Source of the DNA: Bdellovibrio sp.
Lineage (GTDB): Bacteria > Bdellovibrionota > Bdellovibrionia > Bdellovibrionales > Bdellovibrionaceae
Direction: 5' to 3'
Length of the DNA: 12,653 nt
Assembly: GCA_019104905.1 (NCBI GenBank)
Contig: JAHRXB010000207.1
Location: 1 to 12,653, forward strand
The notes below the pieces were generated by a model. That model searched no databases and was not told where the DNA came from. It worked only from the letters and a program-made list of their open reading frames with translations. Both the position numbers and the translations under genes were made by a program. Below are positions 2,310-4,509 of this stretch, one piece after another; the stretch's first letter is position 1; the number at the start of each line of letters is the position of its first letter.

Positions 2310-2336
2310 TCAACTATCCAAAGGTCCAGCCGATAA
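2310..2336 (+). promoter_or_regulatory. FliA (sigma-28)-like promoter
   Basis: A perfect GCCGATAA at 2329-2336 matches the sigma-28 -10 consensus in all eight bases. Exactly 11 bp upstream, TCAACTAT (2310-2317) matches TAAAGTTT at five of eight positions. Transcription would begin near 2343, about 24 nt before the ATG at 2367. The spacing and the downstream ribosome site, ORF and terminator make a coherent unit. Confidence 0.6.
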
Positions 2337-2366
2337 GCTTACTACCTTGAATGAAAGGAGCCTTGA

Positions 2367-2456
2367 ATGGCGAATTCAAAAGTAGTACGTCACGAATATA
2401 TCTGGAATAAGGAGATTCGTGAATTGACTCTACACCCGGAGACCGGTCCTCCATAA
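2367..2456 (+). CDS. Small protein, 29 aa, function unknown
   Basis: ATG 2367 to TAA 2454-2456. AAAGGAG (2354-2360) sits 6 nt before the ATG, an ideal ribosome site. The peptide begins MANSKVVRHEYIWNKEIREL and ends TLHPETGPP: hydrophilic, mixed charge, no signal peptide and no membrane segment, with a Pro/Gly-rich tail. It is flanked by a sigma-28-like promoter and an intrinsic terminator 27 nt after the stop, so promoter, leader, ORF and terminator form a complete short transcription unit of about 170 nt. I do not recognise the family. If the promoter is used by FliA, expression would be tied to the motile (attack) phase. The alternative is that the transcript is a small regulatory RNA and the ORF is incidental. 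A shorter overlapping ORF (2351-2410) has no ribosome site. Confidence 0.6.
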   Translation: MANSKVVRHEYIWNKEIRELTLHPETGPP

Positions 2457-2482
2457 AATCTTAAATACTAATTTGGTGAACG

Positions 2483-2515
2483 AAAAACCAGAATCACAAG
2501 GGATTCTGGTTTTTT
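2483..2515 (+). terminator. Intrinsic terminator of the small gene, probably bidirectional
   Basis: AACCAGAATC (2486-2495) pairs with GATTCTGGTT (2502-2511) around a 6-nt loop, followed by T's to 2515. The left arm is preceded by A's from 2483, so the same hairpin can end minus-strand transcription coming from the metalloprotease gene at 2553. Confidence 0.9.
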
Positions 2516-2552
2516 GTATTTTGTAGTGTCGCAGGATTGACCCCTGACGAAA

Positions 2553-3462: not shown

Positions 3463-4419
3463 CTACAAAATCGAGAAAATGGTCGCAAAACTCAAAGTCG
3501 TGGTCTCAGTTCTCAGATTTTCCGGATAGAAATTTAAGAATGGGGCAAAGTAGATGTCACGAGTGAAGGCCACACCCATTCCCAAGCGACCACTTAAGGT
3601 TTTGTTCAAAAGATCCGCTTCACTGTCTCTGAATCGTGGATTCCAAAAGTTCATCGCCACAGAAGTGTAAACATTCACTCGATCAGAGAAATTGTATTTC
3701 ACTTGCGGATAAAAACCCACGTGGTAGCGACTGGCTTTGCCGTCTTTCTTTTCGTAGCCTCTTTCATACAAGAAAATATTAAGACCAGTATCCAAACCCA
3801 CTGCGAATCCAGAAGCTCCAAAGTTGTAAACCAAAGAGTTATCATAAGATAAAGAACTGTACTGCCCGACGTCGCGGAAATTCGGAACCGTCGTAATGGA
3901 AGCGCCGTAAGAGTTTCTCATCTGCACTTCGCCCAAACGCGCATTGCGATCATAACTGATGAAGGGAGTTTTCACGTCCGTACGCTCAACCCCATGCAAT
4001 GGAGTCAAAGCCGTGATCCCCGTCCCCACGCTCAGCGCGCTTTTGCTATCCATACGGTAACGGCCACTGATCGAACCTCCCAAAGCCGTCGCAAACACAC
4101 CGATAGAACCGTCTGGATTCGGTTGATATTTATTAGAAAGATCCCCAATCGGAGGACCCGAATAGGCCAGAGCGAATTTCAAAGAGTAACGAGATAAAGA
4201 ACCGGAGTCCGCCTTCAACTTGGTATCCGTGATCTCTTTGTCGTCTTCAAATTTTTTATTTTTAAGAACATCGCCTACTTTCAAGGTCGATTCCTGAGTC
4301 ACAGACTCTGTGGAAGAAGTGGTGGAAATCGTGGATGCCGAAAGTGTTGTTGAAGACGTCTGTGCGTTTGCTGTCAAAGCCAAACCCACCAGAGCCACTA
4401 CCAAAAGCCCTTTACTCAT
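3463..4419 (-). CDS. Outer-membrane beta-barrel protein with Ser/Thr-rich N-terminus
   Basis: 318 aa from ATG 4419; GGGAG lies 6 nt upstream and the signal peptide begins there (MSKGLLVVALVGLALTANA, cleavage before QTSS). The frame stays open to 4476 but has no ribosome site there. Residues 20-45 are almost entirely Ser, Thr, Ala, Glu and Gln, an exported low-complexity linker, followed by a charged segment (47-75). From about residue 77 the chain has amphipathic strands separated by short turns ('YSLKFALAYSGPP', 'GVFATALGGSISGRYR', 'FAVGLDTGLNIFLYER', 'HVGFYPQVKYNF') and ends in a hydrophobic strand, FATIFSIL, as barrels do. I cannot assign a family beyond outer-membrane barrel. It lies 90 nt after nnrD and before the M48 protease, all on one strand. 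Confidence 0.75.
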   Translation of the reverse strand: MSKGLLVVALVGLALTANAQTSSTTLSASTISTTSSTESVTQESTLKVGDVLKNKKFEDDKEITDTKLKADSGSLSRYSLKFALAYSGPPIGDLSNKYQPNPDGSIGVFATALGGSISGRYRMDSKSALSVGTGITALTPLHGVERTDVKTPFISYDRNARLGEVQMRNSYGASITTVPNFRDVGQYSSLSYDNSLVYNFGASGFAVGLDTGLNIFLYERGYEKKDGKASRYHVGFYPQVKYNFSDRVNVYTSVAMNFWNPRFRDSEADLLNKTLSGRLGMGVAFTRDIYFAPFLNFYPENLRTETTTLSFATIFSIL

Positions 4420-4509
4420 GAATATCTCCCTGTTTTCGGGAGTTTGTAACCGGGCGGGACTCAAAAGGAAAGTCATGGTTTTGCTGGGAGCACCGAGTTG
4501 GTAGTTTTT

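Follow-up and report, generated by a model that had tools for sequence, protein, structure and literature searches.

Comparative analysis of a 12,653-nt stretch of Bdellovibrio sp. DNA (the window) confirmed a cassette of promoter, ribosome-binding site, ORF and terminator as a real, conserved small gene. The locus is orthologous to APsRNA5 of Bdellovibrio bacteriovorus HD100, so that this small gene was previously on record solely as an sRNA. On balance, it is probably a monocistronic small-protein gene, which would be transcribed by FliA in the attack phase and encode a peptide acting in trans. Comparisons were made among 24 genomes of the genus Bdellovibrio (g1), the sister genera g9 (one genome), g19 (six genomes) and g4 (two genomes), and sets of 66 family, 140 order and 368 phylum genomes. 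The features of the cassette in the window are as follows.

2310..2317, + strand: -35-like element of a sigma-28 (FliA) type promoter, TCAACTAT; CTCAACT (CTTAACT in L005) in 24/24 genus genomes and the g9 genome (G034), with identical spacing
2318..2328, + strand: 11-nt spacer, CCAAAGGTCCA; genus-conserved (consensus over 25 loci) and similar by eye in two g4 loci
2329..2336, + strand: -10 box, GCCGATAA; the sole exact copy within the window, with GCCGATA in 25/25 loci
2343, + strand: expected transcription start, placed 7 nt past the -10 box to within a few nt
2354..2360, + strand: ribosome-binding site AAAGGAG, 6 nt ahead of the ATG; kept in the alignment
2367..2456, + strand: ORF of 29 codons plus stop (TAA, 2454-2456), MANSKVVRHEYIWNKEIRELTLHPETGPP; examined by peptide searches, alignment and codon comparison
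2388..2396, + strand: codons 8-10, CGT CAC GAA; R8 is always CGT where it is R (21/24) and E10 is GAA in 23/24
2390..2397, + strand: left arm, TCACGAAT, of an 8-bp inverted repeat within the ORF; no compensatory changes
2411..2426, + strand: GGAGATTCGTGAATTG, third base of codon 15 through codon 20; near-invariant at the nucleotide level
2415..2422, + strand: right arm, ATTCGTGA, of the ORF-internal inverted repeat
2442..2453, + strand: codons 26-29, T-G-P-P; G, P and P in 24/24 and T in 23/24, with three to four synonymous codons each
2480..2517, + strand: intrinsic terminator, 16-pair stem and U-run; the orthologous HD100 transcript stops in the orthologous U-run

Taken singly, these elements are unremarkable, and the cassette was judged to be real because they are conserved jointly. 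The exact GCCGATAA box is by itself only suggestive, as the one copy in the window compares with 0.19 expected from dinucleotide shuffles (at least one copy in 35/200 shuffles). Likewise, the terminator scan alone proves nothing, since 15 such sites were found in the window as compared to 14.8 in shuffles. An earlier note on this DNA had described the ribosome-binding site, the 29-codon ORF and a strong terminator; all three were found as claimed, with the frame of the ORF kept in 24/24 genus genomes and in the g9 genome. The terminator stem is retained in relatives through compensatory changes, with C-G replaced by U-A in 5/12 and G-C by C-G or U-A in 6/12 of a set of 12 chosen sequences, some of which are closely related. 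The predicted leader is ~24 nt long in the window and longer in HD100, L017 and others, where a hairpin was noted by eye.

The E. coli FliA consensus is TAAAGTTT-N11-GCCGATAA. Against this consensus, the 11-nt spacing of the window promoter fits and the -35 element TCAACTAT matches at 5/8 positions. The Bdellovibrio FliA promoter form given in PMC3627812 is TTAAG-N16-CCGATA. The window gene has the CCGATA -10 box in common with these FliA-dependent genes, and its orthologue shares their attack-phase expression, whereas the published genes carry TTAAG at N16 and the window gene TCAAC (3/5 matches) at N15, together with a conserved spacer. The -35 was called weak because of these matches (5/8 and 3/5) and the gap of 15; it is yet conserved, with its spacing from the GCCGATAA-type -10 box, in 25/25 loci. 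Thus the sigma-28-like promoter proposed by the earlier note stood with regard to the exact -10 box and the 11-nt spacing, with a -35 that is itself weak. The consensus over the 24/24 genus genomes and the g9 genome, at fixed spacing, is CTCAACT.TcCaAAgGTCcaGCCGATAaG (capitals 90%, small letters 70%). Conservation of the spacer at 2318-2328 extends past the sigma-28 consensus, and this spacer is possibly a second binding site. A loose FliA pattern was found upstream of both g4 loci and 5/6 g19 loci, the sixth (L074) having a weaker form by eye. A scan of named genomes for the promoter pattern returned at least eight stretches, six of them in Bdellovibrio or Bdellovibrionaceae and two being unrelated chance matches.

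The distribution of the peptide was examined by single-sequence and profile searches. The single-sequence search serves as the independent test, since the profile was built from its own members; it found the peptide at the locus in 24/24 genus genomes with E-values of 0.09 or better. Across the 66 family genomes, the same 29-residue query matched 35 at E ≤1, several of the non-genus matches being due to chance, and off-locus matches at E >0.05 (including L029 and L032) were dropped as such. Two profiles, A1 (23 rows) and A2 (27 rows), were built without the identical or near-identical sequences L004, L007, L008, L014 and L018, and A2 also without L073. Among the 140 order genomes, profile A2 found 33 carriers, namely 24/24 of g1, 1/1 of g9, 6/6 of g19 and 2/2 of g4. 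No credible match to this profile was obtained in the other 107 order genomes, nor any in the other 33 family genomes, which include 14 genomes of g17. One further match in this search (G069; E 0.047) has an internal stop and was dismissed as chance, as were weak matches in G064, G069 and G125 in another search. The phylum search of 368 genomes returned the same 33 and G202, whose match (E 0.005) covers positions 4-23 without the GPP end and was judged to be chance. At the DNA level, a query of 221 bp from the cassette found matches in 24/39 relatives, all genus members and some over partial length.

Promoter, frame and C-terminal GPP are retained in 24/24 genus genomes, and the genus ORFs are 27-30 codons long with differences confined to the region near the N-terminus. 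Six residues (E16, E19, L20, G27, P28 and P29) are invariant in the 27 aligned peptides from four genera, and the spacing from L20 to GPP is constant. GPP is retained in the g9, g4 and 2/6 g19 loci despite the presence of 1-7 residues after it. The 24 genus ORFs (22 distinct) align gap-free over their last 22 codons. Synonymous divergence exceeded non-synonymous divergence (pS > pN) in 265/276 pairs, with means of 0.47 and 0.22, respectively, for genomes that are related and hence not independent. The TGPP codons occur in three or four synonymous forms with G27, P28 and P29 held in 24/24 genomes and T26 in 23/24, a turnover that points to protein-level selection. The earlier note had proposed looking for conserved codons with synonymous changes in relatives, and this is the pattern seen at codons 26-29 in the 24 genus genomes. 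The ORF accordingly has a conserved frame, a ribosome-binding site and purifying selection on its residues, and its conservation suggests that it is translated. Searches of Pfam and NCBIfam with the 29-residue peptide matched 0 families, such a short query being insensitive, and no relative was found among solved structures (best PDB match E 0.16, chance). An amphipathic helix was rejected as the moment of the central segment was not above that of shuffles in 4/4 peptides tested.

Expression of the orthologue has been published for HD100. In Table 2 of PMC3627812, APsRNA5 is a 176-nt RNA at 605,441-605,617 on the minus strand with an RPKM of 388,842 in attack phase and 73 in growth phase, a 5,295-fold difference, and its attack-phase RPKM is second, behind merRNA, of the eight tabulated attack-phase RNAs. 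These values agree with the earlier note's expectation of attack-phase expression. Overall, the interpretation in that note is supported, and the published expression of the orthologue strengthens it. Coordinates of G003 agree with those of HD100, as a c-di-GMP-I riboswitch (L100:269-352, minus strand) falls inside the published merRNA interval (1,073,741-1,074,185, minus strand). The orthologous ORF, at 605,512-605,598 on the minus strand, lies within the APsRNA5 interval. PMC3627812 describes APsRNA5 as an attack-phase non-coding RNA and leaves the FliA column blank, whereas the orthologous locus analysed here has an ORF that is conserved and a promoter of the FliA type. The earlier note had placed the transcript between about 2343 and about 2515. 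Its end was borne out, since the APsRNA5 3' end falls in the orthologous terminator U-run; its start calls for caution, as the published HD100 5' end (605,617) lies 24 nt downstream of the HD100 FliA box (605,648-605,641). A potential hairpin, GAACCTCGGGTTAGGTTC, is located between this box and the published 5' end (L082; 605,633-605,616, minus strand). As the hairpin overlaps the listed 5' end by two bases, this end may be processed or misassigned, and the hairpin may also explain the lack of a FliA promoter assignment for APsRNA5. On comparative grounds, our conclusion is that APsRNA5 is a messenger RNA whose promoter is of the FliA type. A search of the Bdellovibrio literature for APsRNA returned PMC3627812 alone, and the literature matches listed held no paper on APsRNA5 translation and no ribosome-profiling or peptide evidence for it. 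In the accessible text of two Bdellovibrio expression papers (PMC12622784 and PMC11209729), neither sRNA nor merRNA occurred as a word start; PmerRNA occurred in PMC12622784.

The published interpretation, that APsRNA5 is purely non-coding and any ORF incidental, agrees with its report as an intergenic sRNA and with the strong secondary-structure potential of most of the set in PMC3627812. It is extremely improbable given that the frame, ribosome-binding site and C-terminal residues are kept in 33 genomes of four genera, that the TGPP codons show synonymous turnover, and that a stretch found to be variable in the alignment of relatives separates the stop codon from the terminator. Since relatives retain the reading frame, the outcome that the earlier note regarded as favouring an sRNA, namely a promoter and terminator kept with the frame lost, was not found. 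No Rfam match was obtained in the window. An Hfq-type sRNA was also rejected, as Hfq was detected in 0/66 family genomes by a search that was positive in 5/14 control genomes.

Constraint within the ORF extends to the nucleotide level. A single codon was used in at least 95% of genomes at 5/10 conserved-residue columns of the peptide, as compared to 2/102 columns of one neighbouring gene (window 3463-4476) that served as the control in the same 22 genomes; for all 24 genomes, the figure for the peptide was 8/13. All 24 genus genomes have GAG for E16 and TTG for L20. At the third base of codon 15, G occurs in 21/24 genomes against 6.3 expected from window codon usage, the residue being K, R, Q, T or V, and G is also in excess at codon 24 (16 vs 6.1) and codon 25 (21 vs 9.2). 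Codon 20 is TTA in all six g19 loci. The inverted repeat spans codons 8-11 and 17-19, which leaves codons 15, 16 and 20 outside it; a conserved hairpin of its arms TCACGAAT and ATTCGTGA was rejected, as the arms lack compensatory change and are mismatched in the K9 genomes. In view of the near-freezing of codons 16-20, a second role of the RNA is possible, alongside the peptide and not in place of it.

A dual-function RNA would encode the peptide and also act through the frozen segment 2411-2426 (perhaps also 2388-2396). This action might consist of base pairing or of the binding of a protein such as CsrA; alternatively, the segment might be an internal ribosome site (GGAG, 9 nt, TTG) from which a decapeptide ending in ETGPP is made. 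The one-codon columns and the fixed bases of codons 15, 16 and 20 are in keeping with such a role, as are the presence of CsrA in 65/66 family genomes and the folding of the 178-nt window transcript (z = -3.95, of which the terminator accounts for part). There is also a precedent in VcdRP of Vibrio cholerae (PMC8672173), a short dual-function RNA that has a 29-residue ORF (VcdP) and conserved RNA sequence like the window locus. VcdRP, however, contains a base-pairing segment, and the keywords of that paper include Hfq, whereas no Hfq was found in the family of the window locus. Base pairing with an exactly complementary target was rejected because a search limited to exact 14-nt complements gave 21 matches in the 24 genus genomes, each at the locus itself. 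A CsrA sponge was discarded as GGA was barely above expectation from composition (4.2 vs 3.2) in 25 transcripts, one of which (L005) was ended at 90 nt by a crude end finder. The inverted repeat, for the reasons given, adds no support, and an internal start is weakened by the G excess at codons 24-25 and by TTA at codon 20 in the six g19 loci. A dual function was regarded as decidedly unlikely.

The neighbourhood of the small gene was compared across loci. A homologue of the minus-strand gene at window 3463-4476, which has no Pfam match and by our own reading encodes an outer-membrane-like product, lies within 1.5 kb in 22/24 genus loci, 19 being downstream and convergent and three upstream (L006-L008). 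Because of this proximity, a local functional link between the two genes may exist. The neighbours are not the same from genus to genus. Of the 10 loci compared, seven have the next downstream ORF on the opposite strand and three (L077-L079) on the same strand, where it is not one gene. As the next ORF is mostly on the opposite strand and differs between genera, the small ORF is not a conserved leader; a leader peptide or attenuator was rejected on this basis and because a terminator follows.

These data also bear on a ribosome-arrest peptide, whose nascent chain would cause stalling once the ribosome reaches the C-terminal GPP or the stop codon. The exit tunnel is long enough to enclose a 29-residue nascent chain. 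Conservation is anchored C-terminally with constant spacing and a varying N-terminus, the ORF ends in GPP-stop in 24/24 genus genomes, and the maintenance of GPP in sister genera even where residues follow it is a further point in favour of arrest. According to PMC7246954, PP-stop is problematic and occurs less often than expected in bacteria (odds ratio 0.44); for E. coli, the paper names DP and PP as the most potent triggers of stalling and ssrA tagging. It also reports a modest measured effect as well as differences between clades. The window peptide resembles SecM and the RAPP class in its C-terminally anchored conservation and terminal proline, but lacks a RAPP motif. Moreover, SecM and CliM, among the matches listed, sit upstream of a regulated gene, whereas the small gene is followed by a terminator and by differing genes, and a same-strand regulated gene is not conserved downstream of it in the ten loci. 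Arrest is regarded as unlikely; if true, with an mRNA of such abundance, ribosomes would be kept engaged but inactive in non-growing attack cells, or the mRNA would be stabilised.

By eye, a micro-ORF of 5-7 codons with its own ribosome site was observed upstream of the homologue in eight g4 and g19 loci (L072-L076 and L078-L080). It precedes the matched peptide segment by 71-113 nt (DNA CCNGATATCTRR) and encodes MAQRPDI, MRPDI, MPGKPDI (three loci), MASRPDI, MPSRPDI or MPGRPDI, each followed by a stop. The RPDI pattern was found in 5/140 order genomes, which are the five RPDI carriers. A micro-ORF of this kind in Bdellovibrio was rejected, as the pattern, which does not capture the KPDI form seen in three g19 genomes, was absent from 24/24 genus genomes. 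A very unlikely reading, which takes in the upstream (R/K)PDI-stop micro-ORF of g4 and g19, is that translation of the mRNA is itself the output, with a stall at GPP parking ribosomes in the non-growing hunter for instant release after prey entry.

The small-protein gene with a trans-acting product is the preferred explanation. RNA polymerase with sigma-28 (FliA) would make the transcript in attack phase, and its translation would yield the 29-residue peptide. This peptide would bind a partner in trans via a C-terminal module consisting of E16, R18-E19-L20, a fixed five-residue gap and T26-G27-P28-P29, the N-terminus being more variable. Given the high abundance of the RNA, the peptide would act in stoichiometric amounts and set an attack-phase state, which would end once FliA transcription stops after prey entry. 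Several observations count against this explanation: Pfam, NCBIfam and solved structures name no partner; the central segment does not exceed shuffles in amphipathicity in the four peptides tested; the freezing of codons 16-20 is unneeded for a purely protein function; the -35 is weak, with the 5' end published in PMC3627812 lying downstream of the FliA box; and the gene at window 3463-4476 remains near the small gene in 22/24 genus loci.

Other published attack-phase RNAs of HD100 were also inspected. APsRNA7 (L102; HD100 3,416,640-3,416,858, + strand) has a 73-residue ORF inside it, whose product is lipoprotein-like by our own reading; as a homologue of this ORF is present in 24/24 genus genomes, APsRNA7 is probably an mRNA too. 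APsRNA2 (L098; HD100 535,188-535,321, + strand) has a DNA match in 21/24 genus genomes, and 13/14 aligned loci (L107-L120) keep an ORF of 15-17 codons that resembles MVKNVDITKAEVTSS and has a strong ribosome site. APsRNA6 holds an 89-residue ORF with hydrophobic stretches (L101:223-492, + strand). The analysis suggests that further RNAs of the table in PMC3627812 are coding too. If APsRNA5 is an mRNA, then a very abundant attack-phase message of the model predator would encode an unrecognised 29-residue peptide.
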